Below are positions 303-29,258 of a stretch of 37,792 nt of DNA, piece after piece (the stretch's first letter is position 1; the number at the start of each line of letters is the position of its first letter). The DNA comes from Nitrospirales bacterium (lineage in GTDB: Bacteria > Nitrospirota > Nitrospiria > Nitrospirales > UBA8639). Under the pieces are notes generated by a model. That model saw nothing but the letters and a program-made list of their open reading frames with translations, ran no database searches and had not been told where the DNA came from. The stretch spans positions 1-37,792 of the forward strand of contig JAJDZI010000008.1 in assembly GCA_022824735.1 (NCBI GenBank), read 5' to 3'. A program made the position numbers and the translations under genes.

Positions 303-2339
303 ATGACGCCTACTAAAAAAGCCGAAGAAAACCCGACGACGCAACCGCTCAGTTTGCCCGAAGAGTTCATCCTGATGCTTCTCAATGAGGAGACCGGGTA
401 TTTTCATCAAGTACCCGGATGGAACTTGGACTGTGCCGTCATCGGGGCAGTGCTGGCAGAACTCTCCCTCATGTTGCGCATCGACACGGACTTGGAATCC
501 CTGTACCTTGTAGACGAGACCGAAACGGGTGACCCCGCCCTGGACCCCATTCTGAAGGAGATTGCAAACGAACCAAGACAACGGAGCACTCGGTTCTGGA
601 TTGAACGGCTTGCCCCCCGGGCGGAGGCCGTCATTGATTTGACTCTGGATCGCTTGGTTAACCTGAAGATCCTGGAATACCACAACGGCGAATTTTGGAC
701 GCTGAATCAGATTGTCTGGCAGACGGACCTGTTCAGCAACTCCCGGGAAAGCTCTGCAGGTCAGTTCATCAAGACGCGGATCAGCAAGACTATCTTCATG
801 AACGAAATTCCCGATCCGAGAGACATCATCGTCATTTGCCTCGTCAATACGTGTGACGTCTTTCGTTTCATCTTCCAACTCGACGAGGAGTCGGAAGCGC
901 GCATCCAACTCATCTGCAAGATGGACGTGATCGGCCGTTCCATCGCCGATGCGGTCGTCTACAATCTCGCCGGTCCAATGCTTCGACATTCGGCCATGAC
1001 CAAGAAGATTCCGGCTGTCTCGGTGTTAAAAACACTGCTCAATCCGCATGTTCGCACGGGCAACATTCCCGCGCTCTTTGCCGACCTTGCGCAAGAATAC
1101 GGACCGGTATTTGAGATCCGCCTGCCGTTTGCCAAGCCCATGATTTTTCTGGCCGGCCCCCAGACCAATCGCTGGGCGCATAAGCGGGGGCGCATATACC
1201 TGAGAGCCAAGGACTATTTTGCCGACTTCGAGAAAGTCTACGGCGCGTCCGGAGTCATGCCTTCCTTGGATGGGGGCGATCATTTCCGGCTTCGCAGGGC
1301 CATGTCGCCGGCGTATTCCCGCCGAAGACTCGAAGGACAGTTGGACCAACTCTATCATTATGCCAGAAATCACATGACGCATTGGACGGTTGGAGACACC
1401 TATCCTGCGACGACCATGTGCCGATTTATGATCAACGCGCAACTCTCACCGCTCTTTATCAGCACTGATTCTCAGGACATCTTTGACGATCTGTCGAAGT
1501 ACAAGGAACAAGCGCTCAAAGTTCACATCTTGAAGATCCTCCCCAAATTCATGCTCAAAACCCCGGCAATGAAACGCCGTGCAAAAGCCATAGACACGTT
1601 GCTGGGACGGATCCAGAGTATCTATACGCCCGCACAGCGGGCTGGCTGCCCGCGGACCCTTGCGGATGACTGGTTGAACCTGCACGCAAGCGATCCGCAG
1701 TTCGTGCCGGAGACGACGCTACGCTTCCAGCTTACAGCAGCACTGATCGCCAGCGTGTACTTGGGCGACGCGTTCAGCTTCTCGTTGTACGCGATGGCGT
1801 CCCAGCCGGAGTTGTATGCGAAAATCCGGAGTGAAGCCGATGCCCTGTTCGACAGCGGCGACCCGAATAGCGAGGACTTCACCCCATCCGCACTTGACGT
1901 CACGCACCGCTTCCTCATGGAGTGTTTGCGGATGTACCCGATCGTCCCGATGTCTATTCGAACCATGATGAATGCGTGCATGGTCGAGGGCTACGAACTG
2001 CCGGTCGGAACAAACATCTACATTGCCCAAACTGCCGCGCATTACATGAAAGACGTCTTTCCTGATCCGTTCACGTTTGACATCGACCGGTATCTGCCTC
2101 CGCGCGACGCGCACCGCAGCCCCGGGTACGCCCCGTTCGGGCTGGGGCCCCACACGTGCCTCGGCTCTCGGTGGCTGGAACTGCAATTGGCCGTCAACGT
2201 GCTGATGGTCGCGCATTACTTCACGATCGAGGTATCCCCTGCGAACTACAAGCTCCGGTACGATCCCCTTCCGTCGCTGAAGCCCAACAAAAAACTGAAG
2301 TTCCACATCGCCGAGCAGAGACGCGAACTGCCCGTTTAA
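303..2339 (+). CDS. GPP34 domain-cytochrome P450 fusion protein
   Basis: This 678-residue protein has two parts. Residues about 15-130 resemble the GPP34/GOLPH3 family: LSLPEEFILMLLNEETG, an alternating hydrophobic helix, then TGDPALDPILKEI. Residues about 225-678 are a cytochrome P450, with ExxR at E540-R543, a PERF-like FDIDRY stretch, and the heme loop FGLGPHTCLG with ligand C619. The I-helix is odd: the usual acid-alcohol pair is not recognisable (ALIASVYLGDAFSFS). In eukaryotes GPP34 binds phosphatidylinositol-4-phosphate at the Golgi; here it may tether the P450 to membrane, which is an inference. The gene is first in a rightward set, 6 bases before the FAD protein gene. The substrate is unknown; a late sterol oxidation is plausible from context. 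Confidence 0.85.
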   Translation: MTPTKKAEENPTTQPLSLPEEFILMLLNEETGYFHQVPGWNLDCAVIGAVLAELSLMLRIDTDLESLYLVDETETGDPALDPILKEIANEPRQRSTRFWIERLAPRAEAVIDLTLDRLVNLKILEYHNGEFWTLNQIVWQTDLFSNSRESSAGQFIKTRISKTIFMNEIPDPRDIIVICLVNTCDVFRFIFQLDEESEARIQLICKMDVIGRSIADAVVYNLAGPMLRHSAMTKKIPAVSVLKTLLNPHVRTGNIPALFADLAQEYGPVFEIRLPFAKPMIFLAGPQTNRWAHKRGRIYLRAKDYFADFEKVYGASGVMPSLDGGDHFRLRRAMSPAYSRRRLEGQLDQLYHYARNHMTHWTVGDTYPATTMCRFMINAQLSPLFISTDSQDIFDDLSKYKEQALKVHILKILPKFMLKTPAMKRRAKAIDTLLGRIQSIYTPAQRAGCPRTLADDWLNLHASDPQFVPETTLRFQLTAALIASVYLGDAFSFSLYAMASQPELYAKIRSEADALFDSGDPNSEDFTPSALDVTHRFLMECLRMYPIVPMSIRTMMNACMVEGYELPVGTNIYIAQTAAHYMKDVFPDPFTFDIDRYLPPRDAHRSPGYAPFGLGPHTCLGSRWLELQLAVNVLMVAHYFTIEVSPANYKLRYDPLPSLKPNKKLKFHIAEQRRELPV

Positions 2340-2345
2340 CGCGCC

Positions 2346-3737
2346 ATGGCCGATAAAACCGAGACACGGACCATGCCGCGACGCATAGCCATCGTCGGCG
2401 GAGGCATATCCGGGCTGGGGGCTGCATGGGGACTGCATCACCACCCGGACCGATTCGACTTCCGACTGTTCGAAGCGCAGGACCGGATCGGTGGGAATGC
2501 CGTGACGGCCGATATGCCGCAGGATGACGGCAGCACCATTCCCTTCGACGTCTCCGTTACCGCTTGCATTCCATCGATCTACCACCACGTCCTGTTGCTG
2601 CTGAAGAAGTTCGGCATCGAGTTACTCGAAACCAGGTTCAGTTACAGCGTGAAGTACCGTGGCCAGGTCTATGCCCATGATTTCGACTCCGGCATCAGAG
2701 AGCAGCTTCAACCCGAAATTGCGAAGTTTCAACGACTCCTGAGACGACTGCATAGGTTCGGCTGGTTGAGCCGTTGCCAGTCGAAATTTCTGAACGCCCT
2801 CAATCCGTTCAATTACATCAGCATGCGGACGGTCCTGAACCTGGGCGGCTTTTCCGGCGACTTCAGATACAAGGTGCTGAAGCCCATGTTCGTCAACTTC
2901 CTGATGGCGACCAACGTGTTCGACATGCCGGCGGCGCTCTTTACGAGATACCTGGAATTCTTTGACATCGAAGCCGCCACGCCCATGCAGACGTGGGATC
3001 AGGGCACACGCCGCATCTATGAAAACCTCTCCGCCGATTTCCGGGACAAAATCTACCTCAACCGGCCCGTCAGGAAAGTACACCGCCAGTCGTCGGAAGT
3101 CGTGGTCGAGGACGAGGACGGCGTCAAGGAAACGTTCGATGAAGTGATCTTTGCATGCAATGCCAACCAGACAATGATGATGCTCGACAAACCCACGATG
3201 CTGGAGCGCTACATCCTCTCATCGATACGTTACGAGAGCGAACTCCACAACCATACGATCATCCACTCCGACTCCTCGGTTCTGCCGGATAACGACGTGA
3301 AGCCCCTGACCACGCGGAGCAACCACATCGAACAATACGGCGCCAGGCCGGACAATTATGAAATCACGTACATCATGCATAACCAGCAGCCGTGGGCCAA
3401 CCGGTCTGATAAGCCTTGCCTGGTGACCTACAACCCGATCAGCCGAATCGATGAAAAAAAGATTATCGGAAAGTGGTGGTTTCAGCACATCGTCCACGAC
3501 GTGCGCCACGTGGCCCTGCTCGTGCCTTTATTCCGCTTCATACAGGGCAAGAAACGGACGTGGCACTGCGGCGCCCACGTGCTGATCAACAGCCAGGAAA
3601 CCTGCTTTGTCAGCGGACTCGCCGCGGCAACGCAAATCGGTGCGGAGTATCCCTTCGACGACCCCGTGGCAAGGCGGTCCTTCAACTATTACGGGAGTAT
3701 CCTGTATGGTTGGGGATTCAAAAAAGCGAAGGGCTGA
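2346..3737 (+). CDS. COG2907-type FAD/NAD(P)-binding oxidoreductase (amine-oxidase fold)
   Basis: The 463-residue protein starts with a Rossmann FAD site (IAIVGGGISGLGAAWGL) near residue 14, followed by FEAQDRIGGNAVT, the GG doublet typical of amine oxidase/phytoene desaturase-like flavoproteins. The rest looks like the predicted NAD/FAD-binding protein family COG2907, whose members are often next to cyclopropane-fatty-acid or lipid genes. ATG 2346 was taken as the start; ATG 2373 (MPRRIAIVGGG) is an alternative, and neither has a strong Shine-Dalgarno. It sits between the GPP34-P450 and an unknown membrane protein and is probably cotranscribed. A desaturase, isomerase or saturase acting on a lipid or sterol is possible; no substrate can be read from sequence. 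Confidence 0.8.
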   Translation: MADKTETRTMPRRIAIVGGGISGLGAAWGLHHHPDRFDFRLFEAQDRIGGNAVTADMPQDDGSTIPFDVSVTACIPSIYHHVLLLLKKFGIELLETRFSYSVKYRGQVYAHDFDSGIREQLQPEIAKFQRLLRRLHRFGWLSRCQSKFLNALNPFNYISMRTVLNLGGFSGDFRYKVLKPMFVNFLMATNVFDMPAALFTRYLEFFDIEAATPMQTWDQGTRRIYENLSADFRDKIYLNRPVRKVHRQSSEVVVEDEDGVKETFDEVIFACNANQTMMMLDKPTMLERYILSSIRYESELHNHTIIHSDSSVLPDNDVKPLTTRSNHIEQYGARPDNYEITYIMHNQQPWANRSDKPCLVTYNPISRIDEKKIIGKWWFQHIVHDVRHVALLVPLFRFIQGKKRTWHCGAHVLINSQETCFVSGLAAATQIGAEYPFDDPVARRSFNYYGSILYGWGFKKAKG

Positions 3738-3760
3738 ACTGTCCGTCAGGATCAGAAGAT

Positions 3761-4495
3761 ATGCCTGAATCCGGTGCTGATCGAGCGCTTCGCGAACAGG
3801 ACGCAGACCAGGCCAGCCTGAGGGTGCCGGTGGGACTGTTCGTGGCACTGATCGTCTCGGCCCTTGCCATGCTCGGCATCGGCACACGCTACTGCGTCCA
3901 CGGGGACCTGAACGCCATCCATGCCGTTTTGAGCCTGTTTTTCTCGATCAACCTGCTGATCTGCTATTGGGAGATATGCCTGTTCCTTCGACCGGACTAT
4001 ATCAGGACGCGCACCGAATATTGGCATGCACGGTGCCGTGAAACCGGCCGGACTCCAGCCTTCGAGTTCTTTATCTCAAAGAAGGTCCCCTTGACACAGG
4101 CCTTGTCGCCGACGCTCTGGGCCGACGTCTGGGCGGCCTACTCCCAGTACGATGACTCCTACGCGGACCGCCTGACGTTCGGCTACAATGCGGATATTGC
4201 CAACGGCTTTGTAACCCCGGTTCCATCAATGGTCCTGTACGCGGCGTATACAGTCGATGTCCTGCCTGCTGTCTTTGCAGGCATTCTCGGAGTCATGGTG
4301 TTCTGGCAATGGACCTATGTGACGTCTGTTTACTGGGTCAGCTTCTTCGTCGCCAAACGGCAAACCCGCATCAGCCGGCGCGAGTTGTACACCTACATCC
4401 TTGCGATCAATGCTTTTTGGGTGCTATGCGCGCTGCTGGGCTTGTACGTCTCGATCCGCCTGATTATGGACGGCAATTACAGCATCCTCGGATAG
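3761..4495 (+). CDS. Polytopic membrane protein of unknown function
   Basis: I do not recognise this family. The 244-residue product starts at ATG 3761, 23 bases after the FAD gene; longer upstream starts would overlap that gene heavily. About five hydrophobic segments are visible, near residues 20-43, 48-72, 145-168, 170-195 and 210-232. A conserved-looking patch (NADIANGFVTPVPS) precedes the third, and the loop after the second helix carries charged and aromatic residues (YIRTRTEYWHARCRETGR). Position suggests a partner of the P450 and FAD protein, perhaps in sterol or lipid modification. A four-to-five-helix sterol isomerase such as EBP was considered, but I cannot place its catalytic residues. 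The stop codon lies inside a short tandem repeat. Confidence 0.75.
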   Translation: MPESGADRALREQDADQASLRVPVGLFVALIVSALAMLGIGTRYCVHGDLNAIHAVLSLFFSINLLICYWEICLFLRPDYIRTRTEYWHARCRETGRTPAFEFFISKKVPLTQALSPTLWADVWAAYSQYDDSYADRLTFGYNADIANGFVTPVPSMVLYAAYTVDVLPAVFAGILGVMVFWQWTYVTSVYWVSFFVAKRQTRISRRELYTYILAINAFWVLCALLGLYVSIRLIMDGNYSILG

Positions 4496-4519: not shown

Positions 4520-7500
4520 TCAGGAACCTGACAGATCCAGCCTGGCCCGGCGCCGCTGCTCGTAGAGACCGAGCGCGTGCAGGGGAAAATACTGCCGATA
4601 CAGGACGTAATCCAACAGCGCCGTACGGAAAAAGATCCCGGCCATATCCTGCCTCGGCCATGCCCCATCGGCATCCTGCATGTCGAGCAAAAACCTGGCA
4701 CCCTGCGAAATCGCCGCCCAGTTCGAATGACCCGCCTCAAGGAGCGCCATCAACGCCCATGCGGTTTGGATGACCTGGCTTTCGTCATGCGCAACGTACC
4801 GGCCGGTCAAACAACCGCTGTGGTGTTCACCCCATCCCCCGTCCACGTGCTGGCGGTCCAGCAGCCATTGGCAGGCCAACCGTAGCGCCGAATCACCCGG
4901 ACGGGCCCCGGCGGCAATCAGCCCCCTGATACCGAATAAGGTGCCGTAGATGAATTGAACGCCCCAGACGCCGCGCCATGACCCATCGCTTGCCTGAGTC
5001 CGGCGAAGCCAGACGTCAGCTCTCGACATAGCGTCCTGCACTCCCCGATTCGTGATATGCGGAAAGGACTCCTTGCAGGCGGCGAGCGCCGCGAGGCAAG
5101 ACGCGGTGCACTCGACATAGGAATGCTCAGTCATCGAGTCGCCAAACATTTCAGCCGGATTCAGCCACTCAAGACCAACCGCGGAGCGCCGCGCCTCATA
5201 GCTGCCAAAACCGCCATCGCGGTTCTGACTACGCAGCATGAATTGAACCGCATCGCTGAGCGCCGTCTCGCTGATGGCCTTGGGGTCGGCGGCAAGAATC
5301 CCCAGCACCGCTTCCGCAGTGCAGTCACTCACCGGCCAGCCGTGCCATCCCCCGGGAAAACACCAGCCGCCTTGAGGATCGGCCCGATATGCCTCGCGAA
5401 ACCCTTCGAAACTGGTGCCGATCTGTTCCCGGCACAGGAAGCCGGCTCCTTGCCGAAGAGCCTGTTGCACCCCGTCGAACTCGGGCACCGTGGCCAGGGC
5501 TTGCAGGGCGAAACCGGTGTCCCATGAACTGCTTCTCGCGCCGGTGACTCGCGCGCCCCGCTCTTCATCCTCCCAGATCCAGCCATCCAACTGCGCGAGC
5601 GCCTGACGACAGTCGGCGTCGTTCGGATCACGCAGCCATAAGGCCAGGATGTTGAGGAACCCGCTGACCGGAGAGATGCTCGTATGGTTGGTGGTTTGCA
5701 GTTCCCATTGTATCTGCCGGATGAGCGCGTCCACGCAGTGGGTGCGCAGACGTGTGTCGTGGAACCGTTCAAATACCCGCGCACACTCGTATCCGGTCCG
5801 GAGCCACGCGCTGGGGCGTGCGTAGAGGTCGGCGTCTCGCAAGCGATGACGGCCCGCGGAAAAATCGACGTTGGCAAACCCCTGGGGGAACAGTTCTTCT
5901 CGTAACGAGGCAATCGTGGACGTGACGGGCGTTTGAAACCGATGCGTGTAAATGACCGCCATCGCCATATAGATCAGCCGGGTATGGCAGTACCAATTTG
6001 AGGGATGTAACGGTATCCGGCGCGGCAAGCTCCACAACTCAGGCAAGACGGCGTTGACCCCGCGCCAGTCGTAGAGATTGAGGAGCGCCAGCCAGAATTT
6101 CCCCCAGCTCGGGATCCCGAGCACCCCTTCGGCTTGCAGGAACCGGCCGGCCGGCTCGATCAACGGATCATCCCGTTCAACACCGAGCAATCTCGCCGCG
6201 ACGTACACCAGGGTGGTGACAAACAGGTTGGGCGGCGGGTGCTCGTGCAGACTCCATAAGCCTCCTTCGAGACGGGTACATTCAAAGGAGCGCAACACAC
6301 GACGGCGCCGGCCGGGGTCGAGCGGCCGCCCCATCACGTGGTGCAGCAGCACGTATTGTGCGGTGAGCATGGGACACCAAACCATCTCGCCTTCCCAAGC
6401 GCCATCCTCACCCTGGAGCTTCAACAGCCCCGCACTTGCGCTCCTCAACGCCGGCCCCGCGTCGGGTGACGCACTCACCCTCGGGCGGATGGGCTGGGAG
6501 TTGTCCGCACTCGATGGCATGGAAACCAGAAGCGCACGGGACAAGGTATCTCGAATGTGTTCGTTTTTTTCTCCGCCCCCGCCTCTCGCCTTGCGCAATT
6601 GCATGACGCCACGCAGGAGCCACACGAGACGACCGAAGAGTGCATAAACCATCTCGAAGGCCCGACGCCAAGCAAACTGGTCGTAGGATCGCGGAATCGC
6701 CCCGGCAACCGTCCGGACCACCACCGCGCCGCCCGCGAAACTCATACGGACTATCGATATATCTTCACAAGCGAGTAACGACATGGTCCGGTTGCGGAAC
6801 GCGGAACTTGACCGCCAACGCCGGTAGATCTCGTGTCTGACCGCCACCGCCTCGGGCCGGTGGTCGGCGAAGACCTCGTAGAGCTCTATGGCGAGCAACT
6901 CGGGAGTGTGGGTCGCCTGGAAACGCTTCATGGTGAAGTCGTGGAAGTCCTTGCCCTCGGCCAGCGCCAGCGCATCGCCGAAACCGAGGGTCATTCCCAC
7001 CGCCGTCATGGGATGGTAGTGCCCGGCTGCATCACCAATCAGCACTCGATGTGGGCTTCCGTACGTGATGCGCGGGCTCAGTTCATTGGCCGCAGCCTGG
7101 TATTGCCCCGCTCGTAGCGTTTCGACAAATGCAGGCCTGAGTGTTTCCGGCAACGCATCGGCACAGGAGTCCGACAGGAAGCCAATCCAGTCCCCGTGTG
7201 CCCAATTGTCCGATGGAACATCGACGATGACCCGGACGCAATCTTCTCCCAGACGGAACATGAGCATTGGACCTGGTCCACCGCATAACACGTGCCCATA
7301 ACCCTCCAGCGGCAAACTCACCCCCCTTAACGTCACACCCACCATCCGCGAGCAGGTCTTCGGCTTTATCGATAAGCCCAACGATCGACGCACGATTGAG
7401 GCCCGGCCGTCGGCGCCGACAATTCGCGCGGCGGAGAGCGATTGCTCAGTGCCGTTACAGGAAAACGTGACCCGCGTGTTTTCCACCGAACGGACCCGCG

Positions 7501-7882
7501 CATGGGTTATGAAGTCGACACCCGGCTCATTCTTGATCGCCTCGCGCAGGTTCGAGACGATCTCCGCATGCTCGCACGCCACACCGTGAAGTCCTTCCGG
7601 ATAGGGAAGCGCGATCGGCTCCGATCCGTCTTCAGGGAACACGGCAAATCCTTTACCGATAGTGCTGCGAGGCTGCGTATCGAACCTGATGCCGACTTCG
7701 CGCAACATCCGCACGGCAGGCGGATGCAGCCATTCTCCCGCCATCCGTTTGGACACGTTGGGATTGGCTTCGAGCAGGGCGACCCGAGCGCCTTTCCTTG
7801 CGTGAGCAAGCGCGCAAAAGCTACCGACCGGGCCTGCGCCGACGATGACGACGTCGTAGCGCCCAACAGTGGCGTTGCTCAT
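4520..7882 (-). CDS. Squalene epoxidase-like flavoprotein fused to oxidosqualene cyclase
   Basis: One uninterrupted frame encodes two successive sterol enzymes. Residues 1 to about 440 are a class A flavin monooxygenase: FAD motif G15AGPVG20, a central DG motif (GADGRAS), and GD motif D284 within GDAAGHYHPMTAVGMT, which resembles the HPLTGGGMT of squalene monooxygenase. After a polar linker (about 450-490), residues about 500-1120 form a terpene cyclase. It has repeated QW motifs (DGAWEG, DGGFGS, DGSWRG, DGGWGE) and the oxidosqualene cyclase acid motif VSDCTAE with D853; squalene-hopene cyclase would show DxDD. The predicted steps are squalene to 2,3-oxidosqualene to a tetracyclic sterol. The start chosen is ATG 7882, which overlaps the CYP51 stop as ATGA; an ATG at 7927 would add 15 residues. 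H847 and V851 suggest a lanosterol/parkeol-type product, an inference. Confidence 0.92.
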   Translation of the reverse strand: MSNATVGRYDVVIVGAGPVGSFCALAHARKGARVALLEANPNVSKRMAGEWLHPPAVRMLREVGIRFDTQPRSTIGKGFAVFPEDGSEPIALPYPEGLHGVACEHAEIVSNLREAIKNEPGVDFITHARVRSVENTRVTFSCNGTEQSLSAARIVGADGRASIVRRSLGLSIKPKTCSRMVGVTLRGVSLPLEGYGHVLCGGPGPMLMFRLGEDCVRVIVDVPSDNWAHGDWIGFLSDSCADALPETLRPAFVETLRAGQYQAAANELSPRITYGSPHRVLIGDAAGHYHPMTAVGMTLGFGDALALAEGKDFHDFTMKRFQATHTPELLAIELYEVFADHRPEAVAVRHEIYRRWRSSSAFRNRTMSLLACEDISIVRMSFAGGAVVVRTVAGAIPRSYDQFAWRRAFEMVYALFGRLVWLLRGVMQLRKARGGGGEKNEHIRDTLSRALLVSMPSSADNSQPIRPRVSASPDAGPALRSASAGLLKLQGEDGAWEGEMVWCPMLTAQYVLLHHVMGRPLDPGRRRRVLRSFECTRLEGGLWSLHEHPPPNLFVTTLVYVAARLLGVERDDPLIEPAGRFLQAEGVLGIPSWGKFWLALLNLYDWRGVNAVLPELWSLPRRIPLHPSNWYCHTRLIYMAMAVIYTHRFQTPVTSTIASLREELFPQGFANVDFSAGRHRLRDADLYARPSAWLRTGYECARVFERFHDTRLRTHCVDALIRQIQWELQTTNHTSISPVSGFLNILALWLRDPNDADCRQALAQLDGWIWEDEERGARVTGARSSSWDTGFALQALATVPEFDGVQQALRQGAGFLCREQIGTSFEGFREAYRADPQGGWCFPGGWHGWPVSDCTAEAVLGILAADPKAISETALSDAVQFMLRSQNRDGGFGSYEARRSAVGLEWLNPAEMFGDSMTEHSYVECTASCLAALAACKESFPHITNRGVQDAMSRADVWLRRTQASDGSWRGVWGVQFIYGTLFGIRGLIAAGARPGDSALRLACQWLLDRQHVDGGWGEHHSGCLTGRYVAHDESQVIQTAWALMALLEAGHSNWAAISQGARFLLDMQDADGAWPRQDMAGIFFRTALLDYVLYRQYFPLHALGLYEQRRRARLDLSGS

Positions 7883-9288
7883 CGGAGCATGCTCGCGTGC
7901 GAACGGCGGCGGTAGCGAACACGACATGGTGCCTTGGGCCCCGTCACCCAGCTACTGTAATTCGGGGCAGGGAACGCCGTGTCGAGAGAAAAGTCGAAGC
8001 GATCGAGCAGCACGGTCCAGATCGCCTTGATTTGCAGGTACGCAAAATGTTCGCCCATGCATCGGTGTTTGCCGCCGCCAAAACCGATCAGGGCGTAGTG
8101 GTGTTGTTTGTGTTCATATGCAGGAGAGGCAAAACGCTCGGGAGCGAACCGCTCCGGGTCGGCGAACACGTGGGACAACCGGTGAGCAACTGCCGGTGAT
8201 ACCACGGCCAGGGTGCCGGCAGGCACGATATGATCCCTGTAACGCAAGGGTTTGAGCACCTTGCGGACCAGAAGGATCAACGGCGGGTGCAGCCGCTCGT
8301 TCTCACGTACGGCGTTTTCCAGCACGACTTGTCTCTTGAGACCTTCGAGGCTCACGATTCCCGTCTCGCGGTAGACGTCCTGCATCTCGTCTCTTATCTT
8401 TGCCAGGTAGGAGGGCGCCCTGAACAGTTCCAGACCGGTCCACGTTGCGAGCACCGCGCTGGTGTGTTGCCCCGCGAACAATGCCGTCAGCAGGATCCCG
8501 GTTATCTCGTCATCACTCAAAGCGCGACCGTCCTTGTAGCGGGCATGCATGAGCGCCTGCAAGAAATCGTCGGGCGCAGCCCCGGAAAGCCTGCGCGCCT
8601 CCATGATCCGGCTGAAGATCTCGGCCACTTTGCGCCGTGCCCGGTCTCGACTCCGATGCGCTGCGATAGGCAGTCTGGGGAGAAAAAAACCGATGACGTT
8701 GATGCCGTTCTGCAGGTCGTGATACGCCTCGGCAAAACCCGAGTCCACTTGCTCCCGGACTTCCTCTCCAATAAGACAGCGACTGGCTATTTTGACGGTC
8801 AGTTCGTTCAGTGCGTGGGGCAGATCGATGACGCCATCCTCGCCAAGCGCGTCGACCAACTGCATTGTCTCCTCGAACATGACGCGGGCATACCTGCGCA
8901 TCGCGGCGTCACGCAGGGCCGGAAACAGAAACCCGAGTTGCTCGTCCATGATCTCGGGGGAGGCGTCGTAAGCCACGCCACGACCGAAGATGGGAACCGT
9001 GAACTGGTACACGGCTTTGGCGCTGAGCTGATCCTCCGGTGCCCTGAAGTAACAGTCGTGAGCTTCAGGTCCGGTGAAGAGCGCAAACTCGCGGGGACCG
9101 AGCCGGAAGCGGACAAGTTCACCCTGCTCGCGCCAACCGCGGTCCAACATGGAGACCGGATTCTTCAGAAAATCCGGCAGATGGCCGATCAGCGGCCACC
9201 CACCCATGAGTTCGGGAATGGTTGTCGCCCCATTCGGCGACGGCTCTGCCGAACGCACGGTTGCTACACCGTGAGAACGAGGTTCCAC
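7879..9288 (-). CDS. CYP51-type sterol 14-alpha-demethylase (cytochrome P450)
   Basis: The enzyme removes the 14-alpha-methyl of lanosterol-type sterols in three P450 oxidations. CYP51 hallmarks are present: the B'-helix/BC-loop signature beginning at Y94 (YQFTVPIFGRGVAYD), and the I-helix GQHTS at 273-277, whose histidine replaces the usual acid. ExxR occurs as ENER, and the heme loop is FGGGKHRCMG with C410. A GTG at 9288 was chosen because AGGAGG lies six bases upstream (9295-9300); an ATG at 9354 would overlap the reductase gene. The resulting 469 residues are normal for CYP51. The N-terminus lacks a clear membrane anchor. The next gene starts in the ATGA of its stop. A dedicated reductase or ferredoxin is not in the window. 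Confidence 0.93.
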   Translation of the reverse strand: MEPRSHGVATVRSAEPSPNGATTIPELMGGWPLIGHLPDFLKNPVSMLDRGWREQGELVRFRLGPREFALFTGPEAHDCYFRAPEDQLSAKAVYQFTVPIFGRGVAYDASPEIMDEQLGFLFPALRDAAMRRYARVMFEETMQLVDALGEDGVIDLPHALNELTVKIASRCLIGEEVREQVDSGFAEAYHDLQNGINVIGFFLPRLPIAAHRSRDRARRKVAEIFSRIMEARRLSGAAPDDFLQALMHARYKDGRALSDDEITGILLTALFAGQHTSAVLATWTGLELFRAPSYLAKIRDEMQDVYRETGIVSLEGLKRQVVLENAVRENERLHPPLILLVRKVLKPLRYRDHIVPAGTLAVVSPAVAHRLSHVFADPERFAPERFASPAYEHKQHHYALIGFGGGKHRCMGEHFAYLQIKAIWTVLLDRFDFSLDTAFPAPNYSSWVTGPKAPCRVRYRRRSHASMLR

Positions 9289-9299
9289 CTTTGCCCTCC

Positions 9300-10403
9300 T
9301 CAATAGACAAACGGCAGCATCGAAAACCGCACACGCTGCGTATAACGGCCCCACAGCTCCCCATACTTGGCGTGGCAGCGACGCTCATCACGTCTCGAGC
9401 GGTGCCACAACAGGCTCGCCAGCCACGCGGGTAACAGGTAGGGCACCCAAGATGCAAACCCGGTGGTCAGGGTGAACGCGAGGTAGATGCAGATTTCACC
9501 GGTATAGTTGAGATGCCGTCCAATGCCCCAGAATCCGGAGACCAGCAGGCGCCCATCCAGAGATTGGGCGGGTTGTCCCCAAATCCTGATACCCGGGTCA
9601 CGCTTGAACCGGTGCTTCTGTTCATTGGCGCCGCGGAAGAGCCAGAAGCCGAGGACGAACAACGTGACGATCGCGGCCACGGCGATAGGAGACAGCGGTT
9701 CCGATGGATGGATCAACCACCAGCCGGCGATGCAGTAGAAAAAAGGCACCAGCACGTAGTCTCCCCAGATCAACATCCATCCGAAACGCTCACTGACCAG
9801 GTCCCAGGTGTAGATCATTCCGTGTTCGAACTGGAAGTAGTTGAGCACGTACAGGAAGGTGAAGACCTGGTAGAGCGTCATCGCCAAGGTCAGTTCGCCG
9901 TAGGTTTCGTACTGCGCGACGGCGAACGATGCGTTGAATAGCACCAAGCCGATCAGAGAAGGACGGTAGCTGAACAACTTCAAATCCACCCCGAACCAGG
10001 CGGGATTCAGGTCCACGCCAAAGAAGAAACCCTTCCACGATCCCGGCGATACATCCCGGGGCCTGGCTCCTTGGAAATACAGCCAGCCGGACAAGGCGAA
10101 TGCGAAGACGTTGGTTGCCACGAACAACGCGGCAAAGTGGGTATGCAGCACGGACAGAGAAAACCAGCCGGAGACCTGGGCGAGACCCGCCACGACCGCG
10201 GTCGCCAGGAACAAGGCAAGGCCGTTCAGTTTGTAGGTGGTGGATTGTCCTTCGACCTCCGGTCCCACCACCCGTTTTCCGGGCAGAAGCATCGAACCCA
10301 GAAACAGCACGCCGATAAACCCCGACACCATGGCCGCCGCCTCAAGCAGGGCGCCGCCCGACAGCGCGGAGGACCATGGGAGGTGGAGATCAGATCCCGG
10401 CAT
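9300..10403 (-). CDS. ERG4/ERG24-family sterol reductase, probably sterol C14 reductase
   Basis: This 367-residue polytopic membrane protein carries the family's C-terminal signature, LLWHRSRRDERRCHAKYG, followed by WGRYTQRV and a C-terminal PFVY. It also has an NADPH/sterol-pocket stretch, GIGRHLNYTGEI, and a degenerate first signature, GVDLNPAWFGVDLKLF. ERG24/TM7SF2 reduce the delta-14 double bond left by CYP51; ERG4 and DHCR7 reduce delta-24(28) and delta-7. Its place directly between the CYP51 and C4-demethylation genes favours the C14 reductase role. It starts at ATG 10401-10403, inside the last codons of the Rieske gene (14-base overlap), with GGAG about eight bases upstream. Confidence 0.9.
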   Translation of the reverse strand: MPGSDLHLPWSSALSGGALLEAAAMVSGFIGVLFLGSMLLPGKRVVGPEVEGQSTTYKLNGLALFLATAVVAGLAQVSGWFSLSVLHTHFAALFVATNVFAFALSGWLYFQGARPRDVSPGSWKGFFFGVDLNPAWFGVDLKLFSYRPSLIGLVLFNASFAVAQYETYGELTLAMTLYQVFTFLYVLNYFQFEHGMIYTWDLVSERFGWMLIWGDYVLVPFFYCIAGWWLIHPSEPLSPIAVAAIVTLFVLGFWLFRGANEQKHRFKRDPGIRIWGQPAQSLDGRLLVSGFWGIGRHLNYTGEICIYLAFTLTTGFASWVPYLLPAWLASLLWHRSRRDERRCHAKYGELWGRYTQRVRFSMLPFVY

Positions 10404-11493
10404 CGCCGTTCTCCGCCCCGCGCGCCATATACTCCCGCCACTTGCGCACGGTCACGTTTTGAAAAGCCCGTACCGCCGGGTTGTACTCGATGGGAGGCGC
10501 GTCCCAATGTCTCTCGTACCCCTGCTGCTCCGCTTCGACCGCAACGCCGTCCTGGGCGAGTAACGGACCGATGAGTACACGGTTCGAGATCTTCAGGACC
10601 GCGTTCATGGCGAAACGGGGAATACGTACCGGCAGCAAGGGCAACTTCAGCGACTTGAAATAGAACAGGAAGAACGCCCGGGTGGTCCGCTCATCGATCG
10701 GCAGGACAAAAAGCCAGTGTTTAATCGCGTCATCGGTGTTCGACCACTGGTAGGGGTATTGATAGCAAAGATCCATATACGTGGTGTCGACGCTGCCGTG
10801 ATCGACAAACAATCCCGAAATACGCCCGCGTCCGACCTTTGTATTGTAGGCCACGTGCACGTTGTCGCCGACGGTCTCACAACGAGTGAGGACGGCGCCT
10901 TCTTCAAACGGACGATATTGACGGTGCAGGTGGGCGTGGGTGAAATCACTCACGTTGTCGATCACCATCGAGTGGTGAGCCGCCCAAGTGAACACCAGCG
11001 GCTCGCAGGCCCATCGCTCGGGTCCCTCAAGTTCGGGGATGTCCGGGATACGGCGCAGCTCCGCTTGCTCCGGGTCTCCGGGGAACAACCAGACCAGACC
11101 GTAACGCACCTTCACGGGATAGGTTCTGAGCGGAAGCGTTGGAAGACCACGTCCGTAGCGGTCGTGGGGGATCGAGACACAGCGTCCGTTTTCATCGTAC
11201 TGCCAGCCGTGGTACGCGCACGTGAGCCGGCAGCCTTGCACCTCGCCCATGGAGAGTTTGAGTTGGCGATGCGCACAGCGATTTTCAACGGCGTGAAACG
11301 AGCCGTCCTTTCCCCGGAACAGCGCAATGGAACGTTTCCAGAACATGACCTCGACCACCGCCCCCGGTTTGACGCGGTGCACTTCCTCAACCGCGTACCA
11401 ATAATTCGGGTCCATACCCGCAGCACGCGCTTGCTGACGCAGGTTGCGGGCTTCCTTGAAGTCAGGTGGGGTACTCATCAGCGCCGGGCTCAT
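10390..11493 (-). CDS. sdmA: Rieske non-heme iron oxygenase, SdmA-like sterol C4 demethylase
   Basis: The 367-residue product has a complete Rieske [2Fe-2S] site: C73-x-H75 and C92-x2-H95, the latter in CAYHGWQYDENG. A mononuclear iron site follows around NVSDFTHAHLHRQY. In Methylococcus capsulatus, SdmA is a Rieske oxygenase that oxidises one C4 methyl of 4,4-dimethylsterols and works with the SDR SdmB. The same pair is adjacent here inside a sterol operon, which supports this role over other Rieske oxygenases. ATG 11493 overlaps the SDR stop as ATGA; an ATG at 11586 would overlap that gene by about 100 bases. The sdmA name is assigned by family and context. Confidence 0.82.
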   Translation of the reverse strand: MSPALMSTPPDFKEARNLRQQARAAGMDPNYWYAVEEVHRVKPGAVVEVMFWKRSIALFRGKDGSFHAVENRCAHRQLKLSMGEVQGCRLTCAYHGWQYDENGRCVSIPHDRYGRGLPTLPLRTYPVKVRYGLVWLFPGDPEQAELRRIPDIPELEGPERWACEPLVFTWAAHHSMVIDNVSDFTHAHLHRQYRPFEEGAVLTRCETVGDNVHVAYNTKVGRGRISGLFVDHGSVDTTYMDLCYQYPYQWSNTDDAIKHWLFVLPIDERTTRAFFLFYFKSLKLPLLPVRIPRFAMNAVLKISNRVLIGPLLAQDGVAVEAEQQGYERHWDAPPIEYNPAVRAFQNVTVRKWREYMARGAENGDAGI

Positions 11494-12680
11494 ACCGGGC
11501 CTCCGTCGGGGGTAATCCGTATACCTTGGTTCAGCATAAGACTGTCCTCTTGTCTTATCGCGTTTTGCCTCGTGACGTTCGCGCACGGACGTTTCGCCAG
11601 TGGGTTCGTGATTGCGTTGCGGTGGTAGTAAAAAGCGTAGGCCTCATGAACCGCGGCGCGGATACTGGTTGGCTGATAGCCGAGATCCCGTCTCGCTTTA
11701 CCGACGTCGGCGTGCAAGCGTTTACGCAACAGGCGAATGGCGCCCGGGGTGAAACGCTGCGGGAAGCTCGGGTGAAACCGGCTCAGATAAAAACTCGCCA
11801 TTTCCGAAAAAACGAGCATCATGTTGGCTGGAATACGCCGGCACGGCCGCGGAACGCCCGAGACCTCTTCGAACAGGTCCAGAATTTCGGAAATGGTTTT
11901 GTATTCGCTACTGAAAATGTACTTTTCGCCGGAGCGTCCATGACGCATACACAACAGGTGTCCTTCGACAATGTCCCGGGACGCGACGAACTCGAACCCG
12001 CCGTCAACGTACGCATGGAGCTTGCGGTTGCTGTAGTCACACAACGCTCTTCCCAATCGCGAGGGGAAAAAATCGGCGGGCCCGATCACGGCGCAGCACG
12101 TTGCCACCACGACGTCCTGTCCTTTCACCGCGGCGCGCCAGCATTCATGCTCGACGAGCGACTTGCTGCGCTCGTAGGGCATCGTGCGCTCCATGGGATA
12201 GAATTGCATCGTCTCGTTGGCGGGCGCGGACGGATTATCCAAATCGTACCCGACTGCACTGAAAGAGCCCGTCACCACCACCCGGCCGGCTTCCACCTCC
12301 CGCGCCGCTTGCAGCACGTTGCGGGTGCCGACGACGTTGCAGTCGAATATTTCCCGGCGATGAGCGCGATTGCCTTCGATGGTCGAGATTTTGGCCGCGA
12401 CGTGGTAGACGCCCTGACAGCCATCAAGCGCGCGCCTGGTGGCATCCAAATCCCGGATGTCGCCAAACCGGCGTTCAACGTCAAGACCTTCCAAGCCTTC
12501 GTTGTTGTCTTCGTGTCTCAGCAGGACACGGACCCGCACGCCGTCGTCCACCAGCCGGCGCACGAGATTGGCGCCTACGTGTCCGGCCGCGCCGGTCACG
12601 AAGACCGGCGGCGAAGAGTCGGCAGATGTATGCAAAAAGGGTTGTTCCACAAGACGTTCTATCGAGGTGGGCCTGAGCAC
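11490..12680 (-). CDS. sdmB: Extended SDR, 3-beta-hydroxysteroid dehydrogenase/decarboxylase, SdmB-like
   Basis: This 396-residue extended short-chain dehydrogenase has a TGAAGHVG nucleotide-binding motif (residues 29-36), a serine-containing strand (VTGSFSAVG, about 136-144) and the catalytic Y169-x3-K173. The family includes 3-beta-HSD and the eukaryotic sterol C4-decarboxylase NSDHL. SdmB of M. capsulatus oxidises the 3-hydroxyl and decarboxylates C4 after SdmA has acted. This is the first gene of the leftward operon. It starts with GTG at 12680; AGGTAA lies about eight bases upstream. The C-terminal 40 residues beyond the SDR core are polar and are unlike anything I recognise. Confidence 0.82.
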   Translation of the reverse strand: MLRPTSIERLVEQPFLHTSADSSPPVFVTGAAGHVGANLVRRLVDDGVRVRVLLRHEDNNEGLEGLDVERRFGDIRDLDATRRALDGCQGVYHVAAKISTIEGNRAHRREIFDCNVVGTRNVLQAAREVEAGRVVVTGSFSAVGYDLDNPSAPANETMQFYPMERTMPYERSKSLVEHECWRAAVKGQDVVVATCCAVIGPADFFPSRLGRALCDYSNRKLHAYVDGGFEFVASRDIVEGHLLCMRHGRSGEKYIFSSEYKTISEILDLFEEVSGVPRPCRRIPANMMLVFSEMASFYLSRFHPSFPQRFTPGAIRLLRKRLHADVGKARRDLGYQPTSIRAAVHEAYAFYYHRNAITNPLAKRPCANVTRQNAIRQEDSLMLNQGIRITPDGGPV

Positions 12681-13059: not shown

Positions 13060-15351
13060 ATGAACTCCCTGCTACTGGACCGCTACACAACATTCATATT
13101 GCGCTACCGGTGGCTGGTCCTCGCCTTGGCCATGGCGGTGATGGCGGGTCTGGCAGCCGGACTCCAATTCATCAACATCTCCAACGACTGGCGTGACATG
13201 TTGGACGAGGACAATCCTCAACTCGTCGCATTCGACGCCTTGGAGGATACCTACACGGCAACCAATGGGGCGCTGGTCGCAGTCGCGCCCAAGAGAGGGT
13301 CGATATTTACCCGCGAGGCGCTCGGTGCCATTGAGGAGTTGACCGAGGCCGCATGGCGCGTTCCCTCGTCCACCCGTGTGGACTCTCTTACCAACTATAA
13401 CCACACCGAGTCAGTCGAGGATGACCTGAATGTCGAACAACTCGTTGACGACGCGGGATCGCTGAGCGATGACGACCTCGCCCAGATCAAGAAAATTGCG
13501 TTAAACGAGCCCAGTATCGTGGGCCGGCTCGTCTCCCACGACGGGCGCGTCGCCGGACTGGTCATCAGTTTCGCCTTGCCCGAGCATTCGGACACCGCGG
13601 AGATCCGGATACTCAACTATCTCCGCGACCTCCTAGAAGAGGCCAGGGCGGCGCACCCGGATATCGCCTATCACGTAACAGGCAATGTCTTCGTGAACCG
13701 AGTTCTGACGAAGGCGGCCCAAGACGATATGGGAATTCTCGCCCCTGCCGCGTTCCTCGTCATCGTATGCGTTGCCGCTGTCCTCCTGCGCTCCCTGTTC
13801 GGCACGCTGTCCCTCGTCGTGGTGCTCCTTTTCGCCGTCGGGTCGACCATGGGCGTCATCGGCTGGACCGGCTTGGGACTCAACGCCGCCAACTCCGGCG
13901 TTCCCCTCATCATCATGACGCTTGCTATCGCACACTCGGTCCACGTCGTCGAGAAGATCTTTTCCGGTATGAGCCGGAGTCTGGACAGGGACACTGCAAT
14001 CGTTGAATCGCTACGCGACAATGCCTGGCCCGTCTTCCTGACAACGGCCACAACGATGATCGGGTTCCTCAGCATGAATGCCTCGGACTCTCCGCCTTTC
14101 CGGGTTCTCGGCAACCTCGTGGCAGTCGGCATGTTCTTCGCCTACGTGTATTCCATGACGTTTCTGCCGGCACTGCTGTCGGTCCTGCCGCTACGTGCAA
14201 GTCCCGTACGTGCCGGGCATTCCAATTTCTTCGATCGCCTCGGCGCCTTCGTCGTCGCGCGCCGCACGCTCCTGCTCTGGTCCATGGCCGCTGTGGCGGT
14301 CGCCCTGATAGCCGGCGCGCCCCGCATCGAGCTGACGGACAACTGGACGACGCATTTGGATGAACGTTACGAGTTTCGGCGCGACACGGACTTCGTCATT
14401 GAGAACCTGTCCGGCGTAGAAACTCTGGAATACAGCCTGAGAGCTGGACGCGAAGGCGGCATCACCGATCCCGACTACCTGCGAAAGATCGACGCGTTCG
14501 CCGAATGGTACCGCGCCCAGCCGGAAGTGGCACACGTCCAAGTGTTTTCAGACATCATGAAACGCCTCAACAAGAACATGCACAGCGACGACCCGGCCTT
14601 TTACCGGCTACCCGAAGACTCCGAGCTTGCCGCGCAGTACCTGCTGCTCTACGAACATTCGGTTCCCTTCTGCATGGACCTCAACAACCGCATGGACATC
14701 GGCAAAACCTCGACGCGGATGACCGTCACGCTCCACAGACTGAAGTCCGAGGAGATGCGCAGGCTCGAAGCGCGTGGGCAGGATTGGCTCCGCGCCAACG
14801 CGCCGGACCTCGCGACGGAGGCATCGGGGTACAGCCTCATCTTCGCCCATCTGGCCATACAGAACACCAAGAGCATGTTGTGGGGCACGATCACGGGCAT
14901 GATCCTCATTTCGCTGATCCTGATCGGGATTTTCAGAAGCGTGAGCCTCGGCCTCGTCAGCCTCGTGCCCAACCTCATCCCCTCGTTTATGGCTTTCGGC
15001 GTCTGGGGCTATCTGTACACCGAGGTGGGGCCCGCCGGATCTCTCGTGACCGCGATCGCCTTCGGTACCGTCGTCGATGACACCATTCACCTCATGAGCA
15101 AGTACCTGCAAGCGCGCCGCGAGGGCTTTCCCGCGCCCGAGGCGGTGTGCTACGCCTTTCGTTCCGTCGGCCAGGCGTTGTTCACCACGACGATGATGCT
15201 GATGCTGGGGTTTCTGGTGTTCGCTTCGTCGGGGTTCGCAATCAGTTGGATGCTCGGCCTCCTAGTTGCGCTCACGATCGGCTTTGCGCTGATCTGCGAT
15301 TTCCTGCTCCTCCCCCCCCTGCTGATCGCCATCGACCGAAAGACACGATGA
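13060..15351 (+). CDS. RND/MMPL-family transporter, BstA-like candidate sterol exporter
   Basis: The 763-residue inner-membrane protein shows the duplicated RND layout. There is one helix near residues 17-37, a large periplasmic loop (about 40-220), a bundle of about five helices (about 225-380), a second lone helix (about 405-425), a second periplasmic loop and a second bundle (about 610-755). The length and single-gene arrangement match the MMPL/HpnN-like branch rather than tripartite AcrB pumps. It diverges from the sterol operon and is followed by a TPR protein. In M. capsulatus BstA is an RND protein and BstC a TPR protein that bind C4-methylated sterols; the analogy rests on context. 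HpnN-type hopanoid transport is the main alternative, but no hopanoid gene is in the window. Confidence 0.85.
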   Translation: MNSLLLDRYTTFILRYRWLVLALAMAVMAGLAAGLQFINISNDWRDMLDEDNPQLVAFDALEDTYTATNGALVAVAPKRGSIFTREALGAIEELTEAAWRVPSSTRVDSLTNYNHTESVEDDLNVEQLVDDAGSLSDDDLAQIKKIALNEPSIVGRLVSHDGRVAGLVISFALPEHSDTAEIRILNYLRDLLEEARAAHPDIAYHVTGNVFVNRVLTKAAQDDMGILAPAAFLVIVCVAAVLLRSLFGTLSLVVVLLFAVGSTMGVIGWTGLGLNAANSGVPLIIMTLAIAHSVHVVEKIFSGMSRSLDRDTAIVESLRDNAWPVFLTTATTMIGFLSMNASDSPPFRVLGNLVAVGMFFAYVYSMTFLPALLSVLPLRASPVRAGHSNFFDRLGAFVVARRTLLLWSMAAVAVALIAGAPRIELTDNWTTHLDERYEFRRDTDFVIENLSGVETLEYSLRAGREGGITDPDYLRKIDAFAEWYRAQPEVAHVQVFSDIMKRLNKNMHSDDPAFYRLPEDSELAAQYLLLYEHSVPFCMDLNNRMDIGKTSTRMTVTLHRLKSEEMRRLEARGQDWLRANAPDLATEASGYSLIFAHLAIQNTKSMLWGTITGMILISLILIGIFRSVSLGLVSLVPNLIPSFMAFGVWGYLYTEVGPAGSLVTAIAFGTVVDDTIHLMSKYLQARREGFPAPEAVCYAFRSVGQALFTTTMMLMLGFLVFASSGFAISWMLGLLVALTIGFALICDFLLLPPLLIAIDRKTR

Positions 15352-26629: not shown

Positions 26630-27976
26630 TCAGATATTTTGCATGAAGTGCGCAACCGCTTCCTGGTCCACGGCACCCATGATGGCGGAAGAAGGAACCG
26701 TCGCCGACTTTTTCCCCGTCAGTCCGCATTCAATCTCGTCAAAAATCATTTCCACCGGCATGGACATGCCGCCGTAGACGTGAGGGCCTGCCACGATTTT
26801 GGCTTTCGAGTAGCCGTAAATGGCCGTGGCCACGTCTTTGGCTAACCACCCGACGTAATTGAATTCCGGCACGACAATGAGTTTGGCCTTGGCGCACAGT
26901 TTCCGCAATTCCCTCGTGGGGAACGGGCGAAGCGACTTGACCTTGATCAACCCCGCGTGAATACCCTTATCCTTGCACATCCGGATGGCCTCCCGCGACT
27001 GGGCCGCGGCGCTTCCCGACGCAATCAACAGCACGTCGGCATCCTCCACGTCCTTCGTCTCGATCAGGCCGCCCATGTACTGGTCGATATATTTTCGTGA
27101 CCGTTCCACGGCCGCCCAGACCTCTTGTTGCCACACGGCGTGAATGTTGTACGCCATGAAATTCGATTTTTGGACGGGCGCGTCCCGCGACAACCTGGCC
27201 GGCGGATTTTCCGCATCCAGGACCGGAACCGCACCTCTCCATGAATCCCGCTCCGGCAATTTGAGTCCCCGGTCCTGCATGGAGCAATACCCCCGGGCAT
27301 GGGTTACGAAAAAACCGTCGCAGCACACCCCGACCGGCAACGTCACGTCGTTCTTTTCACTGATAATGAAGCCCTTCATGATGTAGTCGAACAAGTCCTG
27401 CTGATTCTCGGCGTGAAAGACGATCATGCCGCAATTCAACAGGTACGAGACTTCAATGTTGTCGGGCTGAATGGCTAACGGAGCATTGACCACCCTGCAG
27501 GTAAACATGGCCACGGCGGGAAGGCGATGCCCCGGCCATGAGGCAATCGGTTCAAGCCCTCTTAACGTGCCCGGTCCGGCCGTCGCGGTAAAACACCGCA
27601 CGCCGGCGCGGGAGCCACCGGCAATCGCCGACATGACGCCGTATTCTTCTTCGCCCCGATAATATTCCTTGACGTAGCCTTCTCCGTACAACACCCCGAT
27701 CAACTGCATGGTTTCACTTTGCGGCGTAATCGGATAGGCGATGGAGAGATCGACGTTGGAGCGGCGAACGGCTTCTTTGGCGGCTTCACTGCCCGTGATG
27801 AATTCCCGTTCACGAGGCGCTTCGAAAAACATATGCTCCGGAGAAACCACCTGTTGCCGTTTGGCCTCAGCATGGGGATCTTTTTTCCCTGCTTGACTGG
27901 ATGGCGGCGGCGCGGCACTCGTAATCGGGTCACCTTGCGGATTGGTTTTTGTTTCCGTCTCTAATGCTTCACTCAT
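26630..27976 (-). CDS. 2-oxoacid:ferredoxin oxidoreductase, alpha subunit
   Basis: The 448-residue product matches the alpha subunit of pyruvate/2-oxoglutarate:ferredoxin oxidoreductases: a pyrimidine-binding domain (SIAYPITPQSETMQLIG, EYGVMSAIAGGSRAGVRCFTATAGPGT) and a transketolase C-terminal domain (LIASGSAAAQSREAI, LIKVKSLRPFP). The first 40 residues are a polar extension. ATG 27976 has a strong GGAGGGGGG upstream; an ATG at 28003 lies before that site. It is the last gene of the five-gene operon. The complex reductively carboxylates acetyl-CoA or succinyl-CoA in the reductive TCA cycle, or runs oxidatively. Pyruvate versus 2-oxoglutarate specificity cannot be read from sequence. Confidence 0.93.
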   Translation of the reverse strand: MSEALETETKTNPQGDPITSAAPPPSSQAGKKDPHAEAKRQQVVSPEHMFFEAPREREFITGSEAAKEAVRRSNVDLSIAYPITPQSETMQLIGVLYGEGYVKEYYRGEEEYGVMSAIAGGSRAGVRCFTATAGPGTLRGLEPIASWPGHRLPAVAMFTCRVVNAPLAIQPDNIEVSYLLNCGMIVFHAENQQDLFDYIMKGFIISEKNDVTLPVGVCCDGFFVTHARGYCSMQDRGLKLPERDSWRGAVPVLDAENPPARLSRDAPVQKSNFMAYNIHAVWQQEVWAAVERSRKYIDQYMGGLIETKDVEDADVLLIASGSAAAQSREAIRMCKDKGIHAGLIKVKSLRPFPTRELRKLCAKAKLIVVPEFNYVGWLAKDVATAIYGYSKAKIVAGPHVYGGMSMPVEMIFDEIECGLTGKKSATVPSSAIMGAVDQEAVAHFMQNI

Positions 27977-28048
27977 GGCTTCCCCCCTCCAGGGTGGCGA
28001 CAATCCCGGTTCAACCGTCCCGGAATTGCGTAATCGATCATAATAGGC

Positions 28049-28804: not shown

Positions 28805-28902
28805 CTCTATCCTCCACTCTGTCTCTGGGAACCTCCAATTAAATCAGAGGTTCCTTGATCCGGTTGAGACGAATACCGTCCTTGCCGTTCAAACAACGTC
28901 CC

Positions 28903-29232
28903 TCAACCTTGCCCTCGAACAGGATTGGCCAAGACTGCTGAACTCGTTTTTTCACCATAGGTGACGTTTTCCGTTAGGGCGGTATCACCGATTTGATCAA
29001 TCATTTCCATTTTAATGGCATTATGCTTGGCCATATTGTCGCACACCCAGACACATTGAGCGCACCCTTTACACCGGTCCACGGCGACGTAGGCGGCTCC
29101 ATATTTGAACCCTTTATCCTGGCCGGCCTCGTTGTCGTACAGAATGGTATTGGCCTCAGGACAATATTGCGTGCACAACTTGCAACTCGTGGCAGCACAT
29201 ATTTCCGTTTCGATATTTGCAACTAAATACAT
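28903..29232 (-). CDS. 2-oxoacid:ferredoxin oxidoreductase, delta subunit (2x[4Fe-4S])
   Basis: The 109-residue ferredoxin-like protein has two cluster motifs: C12, C17, C20, C24, and C54, C57, C60, C64 (RCKGCAQCVWVC). It would pass electrons between the thiamine site and external ferredoxin. The spacing of the first motif (C-x4-C-x2-C-x3-C) is slightly unusual. A C-terminal tail of about 30 residues lacks cysteine. It follows the gamma gene by 26 bases. Confidence 0.9.
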   Translation of the reverse strand: MYLVANIETEICAATSCKLCTQYCPEANTILYDNEAGQDKGFKYGAAYVAVDRCKGCAQCVWVCDNMAKHNAIKMEMIDQIGDTALTENVTYGEKTSSAVLANPVRGQG

Positions 29233-29258
29233 ATTGAATCCCCTCGTCGGTTAAAGCA

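Follow-up and report, generated by a model that had tools for sequence, protein, structure and literature searches.

A predicted MsbE-type squalene epoxidase–oxidosqualene cyclase fusion in a Nitrospirota genome

Introduction

Can a single bacterial polypeptide carry both the epoxidation of squalene and the cyclisation of the resulting epoxide? The question is raised by a stretch of DNA of 37,792 nucleotides (here termed the window; contig JAJDZI010000008.1 of assembly GCA_022824735.1, a Nitrospirales bacterium of the phylum Nitrospirota), in which an initial annotation, made from the letters alone, read squalene monooxygenase (SMO; squalene epoxidase) and oxidosqualene cyclase (OSC) as fused in one protein. 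The claim holds on several grounds: a single reading frame, Pfam and NCBIfam families, PDB matches by sequence and by fold, catalytic motifs and the gene neighbourhood. We conclude that the gene very probably encodes a bifunctional enzyme of the kind represented by MsbE, which would epoxidise squalene and then cyclise the product to a protosterol, of which lanosterol is the likeliest. The frame, the families and the folds are shown by computation, whereas what each half catalyses, what it yields and how being fused might help are inferred.

One reading frame with two enzyme halves

The gene lies on the minus strand within an open reading frame (ORF) that the ORF listing of the window places at 4520–7927 (1135 aa), and it forms a single unbroken frame of 1120 aa at 4523–7882, starting from an ATG at 7882. 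This start is likelier than that of the longer ORF because the ATG overlaps the stop codon of the upstream P450 gene (whose ORF ends at 7879), and because the position holds ATG in eight and GTG in one of the nine full-length copies in the genus, that of the window included. The protein is divided as follows.

6578–7882, minus strand: SMO (squalene epoxidase) half, about residues 1–435; PF08491, 5.1e-23; PDB 6c6n, 3.1e-23; fold TMt 0.80
6449–6577, minus strand: linker, residues 436–478, about 43 residues; predicted helix at 438–448
4520–6448, minus strand: OSC half and stop codon, residues 479–1120; VSDCTAE at 851–857; PF13249/PF13243, TIGR01787; lanosterol synthase by PDB sequence and fold

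The SMO half carries the Pfam SE domain at residues 154–371 (82 bits, gathering score 20.1) and a FAD_binding_3 match (2e-22), and the two models together span residues 9–371. Its nearest PDB entry by sequence is human squalene monooxygenase (6c6n), which is also the nearest fold to this half of an AlphaFold2 model of the fusion; identity to the human epoxidase is 22%. In squalene monooxygenases a flavin hydroperoxide epoxidises squalene, and the motifs of the family are present: GAGPVG (the GxGxxG motif that binds flavin adenine dinucleotide (FAD)), GADGRAS (DG) and GDAAGHYHP (GD), the last containing D284 as first proposed. Across 84 fused proteins (locus L086 omitted from the motif count), the DG aspartate is kept in 82 and the GD aspartate in 84, as are G283/D284 and H290/P291. 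Two other assignments of this half were rejected: a UbiH-type FAD hydroxylase (TIGR01988, 79 bits, cut-off 224.65) and a geranylgeranyl-reductase-type monooxygenase, whose models fall far below their cut-offs.

The OSC half matches SQHop_cyclase_N (4e-50) and SQHop_cyclase_C (1.3e-51) over residues 480–1108, and passes TIGR01787, squalene/oxidosqualene cyclase, with 493.3 bits against a cut-off of 322.7. Its nearest PDB entry is human lanosterol synthase (3e-127), of which residues 85–722 of 732 are covered, and the fold of the modelled half matches the same enzyme (TMt 0.82). The motif VxDCTAE marks oxidosqualene cyclases, while squalene-hopene cyclases have DxDD in its place; the window protein has VSDCTAE with D853 at the position first noted, and D853 and C854 are kept in all 84 fused proteins. 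We take D853 to be the counterpart of human D455, which presumably protonates the epoxide. A histidine, a tyrosine and a cysteine of this half align with human H232, Y503 and C533 in the PDB sequence alignment, and H633, C925 and the tyrosine matching Y503 are likewise kept in 84 of 84. V851 is just as invariant (84/84), and we take it to be the same site as the key valine that was used to annotate MsbE as a lanosterol cyclase (PMC7074536). Squalene-hopene cyclase was rejected as an identity for this half, which falls under the cut-off of TIGR01507. A second cyclase in the same genome (contig C31, 28% identical) is presumably of the hopene type.

Between the halves lies the linker, which had been placed near residues 450–490; a linker is indeed present, and its extent is closer to 436–478, so that the earlier range runs slightly into the cyclase. 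Its length varies from 34 to 50 residues over the 84 fused proteins. The AlphaFold2 model was built from an alignment of relatives in which 75 of 85 rows were used (L058, L086, L096, L098, L107, L118, L142 and L147–L149 were left out), and has a predicted local distance difference test score (pLDDT) of 83.3 and a predicted template modelling score (pTM) of 0.81. The linker contains the helix listed above, and a segment at 460–469 with pLDDT below 50.

Conservation and occurrence

The window's genome and 58 relatives, 13 of them of the same genus, were searched for the fusion. Eight of the 13 same-genus genomes hold it at full length, with 81–91% identity. A ninth copy (G004) is cut by a contig end and has, in its cyclase half but not in its linker, one TAG in frame. 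The linker frame is open in all ten genus copies (the window, the eight full-length copies and G004), with no frameshift or stop of the kind that would have divided the protein. Both halves are under purifying selection: the median ratio of non-synonymous to synonymous substitution rates (dN/dS) within the genus is 0.26 for SMO and 0.17 for OSC, with 0.42 for the linker (36 of 36 pairs each; L012 omitted). The other 45 relatives hold nothing close to the fusion, their best matches being cyclase-only (5.9e-57, 30%), and no carrier outside the genus was seen among 395 genomes of the phylum (an even draw, genus included), where the next best match was again cyclase-only (1.1e-59, 28%).

More distant fused copies came from other samples. 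One, G447, is 53% identical (class sample around G410, 6 of 321 at E ≤ 1e-65, centre included) and another, G858, is 47% identical (phylum sample around G411, 3 of 297, centre included); in the phylum sample around G412 only its own centre matched (1 of 296). A scan of species genomes with two short peptides taken from the OSC half yielded 206 stretches and 155 relatives. The best 80 were analysed further, eight of them same-genus copies already counted above. The two-domain architecture that the initial annotation proposed to search for is found here, with both halves in the same frame in 79 of the 80 best loci, a figure that is uninformative on the frequency of unfused genes since the scan peptides come from this clade. 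As far as the contigs reach, 77 of the 80 run uninterrupted in one frame, the exceptions being L086, with its halves in different frames, and L058 and L118, with a stop in the cyclase half. Such in-frame stops in the cyclase half of an otherwise open fusion, noted in L012 as well as in L058 and L118, come from decay or sequencing error.

By NCBI labels, 74 of the 80 loci fall in nine phyla and six have no phylum; these labels are those of metagenome bins and are imperfect. The fusion also occurs in very long contigs (L067, 1.59 Mb; L101, 3.1 Mb). Some loci are named for sponge sources (Porisulfidus, Spongia_Bin9, lac_sponge), and a sponge origin is likely for the window's bacterium, as kin to sponge-dwelling Nitrospira. 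Spread by virus was considered and rejected, since none of the 61 viral stretches that matched two short peptides codes for a relative. Among plasmid records, 39 match at E ≤ 1e-20, and in the one that spans 80% of the query the genes are annotated separately.

Evolution of the fusion

In a tree of 88 OSC rows the phyla are interleaved, with 11 label changes for nine groups (the minimum possible is eight), a count that is no proof of transfer; the two Binatota rows sit among Nitrospirota. This interleaving agrees with the horizontal transfer reported for sponge symbionts in the accessible text of PMC9531527. The two halves have mostly been inherited jointly. Separate trees of the OSC and the SMO halves in 81 fused rows (L143–L146 and L086 omitted, as were the SMO halves of L058, L096 and L098 at contig ends) contain 33 and 43 strong splits, respectively, of which 23 are held in common, while 200 label shuffles gave a mean of 0.08 shared splits and at most one. 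Patristic distances correlate with r = 0.90, with an SMO/OSC ratio of about 1.4. The shared splits and this correlation indicate that the halves mostly travelled together.

Among unfused relatives, OSC precedes SMO in L145, L146 and Streptomyces (L151), and in Planktothrix the genes are on opposite strands; if one of these arrangements is ancestral, the fusion would have needed a rearrangement rather than mere loss of a stop codon. With hand-picked representatives, a 30-row OSC tree places the unfused Planktothrix gene outside the fused rows (support 85), and the corresponding SMO tree does not resolve it. A 19-row set (16 fused, three unfused), also hand-picked, sets Planktothrix beside the deepest fused rows in the OSC tree (90/81). 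On its OSC data a single fused clade is not rejected by the approximately unbiased test (p-AU 0.308), and SMO-tree support for that clade is 60/20. On these trees the fusion may have arisen once.

The gene neighbourhood

The fusion gene is the last of a row of five on the minus strand, in the order SdmB-like, SdmA-like, ERG24, CYP51 and SMO-OSC. Taken at their longest, the ORFs of the five each overlap the next.

11490–12680, minus strand: SdmB-like NAD-dependent epimerase/3-beta-hydroxysteroid-dehydrogenase-type reductase (start uncertain); PF01370, 1.3e-32; PF01073, 1.2e-18
10390–11586, minus strand: SdmA-like Rieske 4-methylsterol oxygenase (start uncertain); NF052579, 2.2e-121
9300–10403, minus strand: ERG24-type sterol C-14 reductase; PF01222, 3.7e-72
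7879–9354, minus strand: CYP51-type sterol 14-alpha demethylase; PDB matches; stop codon overlaps the start of the fusion gene

The best 18 PDB matches of the CYP51 gene are all named CYP51 or lanosterol, sterol or obtusifoliol 14-alpha demethylase (top E 1.1e-102). The SdmB name is given by analogy, from Pfam domains and a homologue at the same place of the row rather than from an SdmB model. The ordered row SdmB-SdmA-ERG24-CYP51-fusion recurs in 50 of the 80 scan loci; 17 of the 80 have less than 5.5 kb upstream of the fusion. In a further 11 loci, where 5.5 kb or more lies upstream, the fusion is without homologues of CYP51, ERG24 or SdmAB in the stretch (five labelled Actinomycetota, two Gemmatimonadota); in two such loci, L084 and L112, no known sterol gene was found among nine neighbouring ORFs scanned. 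The window's genome has two genes of the squalene synthase family. A search of it for a sterol methyltransferase gave no match, and neither did the positive control of that search.

Other genes of the window adjoin the sterol genes or lie further off. At 13060–15351 (plus strand), adjoining the sterol genes, is an RND/MMPL transporter with Patched and sterol-sensing matches, a candidate sterol transporter. On the other side, adjoining the fusion region on the plus strand, are an amine-oxidase-like flavoprotein (Pfam) at 2346–3737 and an ORF without assigned family at 3473–4495; in a number of loci the fusion has relatives of 2346–3737 and of 3719–4495 nearby. At 303–2339 (plus strand) Pfam finds another fusion, of a GPP34 (Golgi phosphoprotein 3-like) domain with a cytochrome P450. 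GPP34 is near the SMO-OSC fusion in 14 loci, and in 13 of these it shares one frame with the P450; a stricter count of 13 loci has the labels Nitrospirota, Pseudomonadota and Binatota, with one unlabelled. At 26630–29963 (minus strand) are subunits of a pyruvate/oxoacid:ferredoxin oxidoreductase with a CO_dh-type (PF02552) subunit, which may represent the multi-subunit oxoacid oxidoreductase that Nitrospira uses in the reductive tricarboxylic acid cycle.

Mechanism and alternative explanations

In the proposed mechanism, the N-terminal FAD domain would use O2 and NAD(P)H to turn squalene into 2,3-oxidosqualene, whose epoxide the C-terminal cyclase would protonate via D853; the folding that follows would yield a protosterol, lanosterol being the likeliest. 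The other genes of the row would then act on this product, CYP51 removing the 14-methyl group, ERG24 reducing the C-14 double bond and the SdmA/B-like proteins carrying out C-4 demethylation. What a fusion might add is a first guess: a fixed 1 : 1 stoichiometry and adjacent membrane-facing active sites, rather than a sealed tunnel. Both halves match monotopic membrane enzymes, so sharing one membrane patch would be the most straightforward benefit of fusing them. Channelling of the epoxide between the halves is possible, and a sealed tunnel between the sites is not supported. A wider reading, which we offer tentatively and regard as doubtful, is that of a two-step catalyst whose linked active sites pass the epoxide on in a single patch of membrane. 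One gene would then be enough to begin making sterols from squalene, and this portable unit would have spread over many phyla inside sponges, in some lineages (Acidimicrobiia, Gemmatimonadota) apart from the demethylation genes.

A number of observations weigh against a bifunctional, lanosterol-forming enzyme of this kind. L086 (9780–10060) is the sole locus of the 80 whose SMO half is in another frame than its OSC half; the two frames overlap, each continuing through the linker, by base error or natural split. L058 and L118 have their stops inside the cyclase half. In G593 the OSC has its own upstream stop and its SMO reaches the contig end, which may be a case of the halves separating. Four of the 13 same-genus genomes, two of them single-contig, are without the gene, the count of 79 has the bias already described, and strong OSC and SMO splits conflict in six pairings (four OSC and five SMO splits). 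The model is weak in the cyclase (pLDDT below 50) at 617–620, 843–845 and 1086–1090, and the SdmA-like protein scores 405 bits with NF052579, below the cut-off of 600.

A first alternative is that the fusion is an artefact of assembly or binning, in which a base error in a metagenome makes one gene of two neighbours. In its favour, the window comes from a 151-contig assembly, and L086 shows that the two halves can differ in frame. An artefact would nevertheless have to recur in the same form in one locus after another, some within the megabase contigs of L067 and L101, in copies as distant as 53% and 47% identity and in every linker of the genus; these copies in other genomes rule it out, and we give it practically no credence.

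The two remaining alternatives accept the fusion and question what it does. One half might be structural or otherwise employed, the monooxygenase, for example, regulating or oxidising something else, as its faster evolution (dN/dS 0.26 against 0.17; patristic ratio about 1.4) and low identity to the human epoxidase would allow. For a second SMO in the window's genome, the fusion as query gave only a weak FAD match (1.3e-4), no search with the SE model having been made. The FAD and GD/HP motifs are kept, however, and in sequence as in fold this half matches SQLE best, which makes another role improbable. A product other than lanosterol (cycloartenol, parkeol or a triterpenol of the arborane type) is unlikely too, though it deserves more serious consideration. 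The best-scoring NCBIfam family, TIGR03463 (2,3-oxidosqualene cyclase), stays under its cut-off (719.6 bits against 851); H847, nearly invariant among the fused proteins, is at a site where plant cycloartenol synthases carry a histidine; and the 11 loci without row genes point the same way. Lanosterol, parkeol and cycloartenol cannot be told apart here. Against these points stand the invariant V851 and the presence of CYP51 and ERG24 in the row of the window, and we retain the reading of a bifunctional SMO-OSC enzyme with lanosterol as its most likely product.

With a natural epoxidase–cyclase fusion of this kind one can ask directly whether the two committed sterol enzymes hand over oxidosqualene, and engineering gains a tool that consists of one gene. 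The same fused gene in bins labelled to nine phyla bears on which organisms make sponge sterols and on sterane biomarkers, and it suggests that calling such a gene 'lanosterol synthase' and nothing more conceals its epoxidase.

Comparison with known systems

SMO and OSC had been said to be separate proteins in other sterol producers, and so they are in the four unfused relatives that were read (L145, L146, L150 and L151). On plasmid p2 of Planktothrix agardhii (L150) the genes are homologous but separate, with OSC 56% and SMO 44% identical to the halves of the window protein. They belong to a triterpenoid cluster on that plasmid, which further comprises a squalene synthase, three P450 genes and an SdmB-like short-chain dehydrogenase/reductase (48%), with adjoining transposase genes. 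Separate homologous genes are found also in Streptomyces (L151; OSC 41%, SMO 34%) and in L145 and L146 (OSC 45% and 34%, respectively).

The closest parallels in gene order come from sponge symbionts. The accessible text of PMC9531527 describes 'clusters of steroid genes' from Ircinia, ERG24-CYP51-LSS (lanosterol synthase), in 115 of 537 metagenome-assembled genomes of ten phyla including Nitrospirota, and reports the cluster as mobile, horizontally transferred and under purifying selection. The order and the single strand are those of the window, and the mean length there is 5910 bp against 5884 bp here (4520–10403). What differs is the naming: the gene is called lanosterol synthase, and the main text of PMC9531527 uses 'fused' or 'fusion' not at all and 'squalene' once. 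From the 5910-bp cluster and an LSS alignment of 3765 positions, the LSS of that study would include an SMO half. In other accessible texts, PMC10202945 mentions demethylation genes in 'nitrospirea', and the words 'fused' and 'fusion' do not occur in that of PMC4919349.

The initial annotation knew of no described example of the fusion, and here it was mistaken. The methods of PMC10070321 name 'fused SMO/OSC homologs', the same architecture as that of the window protein, which in the accessible text are only trimmed for a tree. Within the openly licensed PMC literature, no biochemical test of a fused SMO-OSC protein was found. MsbE itself (record MT026193) belongs to the msb cluster of a gammaproteobacterial symbiont of the sponge Melophlus, which comprises, in the order given by the lettering, an oxidoreductase (msbA), a Rieske protein (msbB), a sterol reductase (msbC) and a 14-demethylase (msbD), as set out in the accessible text of PMC7074536. 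In the window, too, an N-terminal SMO and a C-terminal OSC share one frame, clustered with oxidoreductase, Rieske, ERG24 and CYP51 genes; the accessible description of the msb cluster differs in having a sterol methyltransferase, msbF, for which there is no Pfam match among the window ORFs scanned. This likeness is one of published description and of domain and gene content rather than of MsbE sequence. Fused SMO-OSC is thus a kind of protein already known, with a member described in 2020, and the Nitrospirota genome of the window adds a further MsbE-type member to it.

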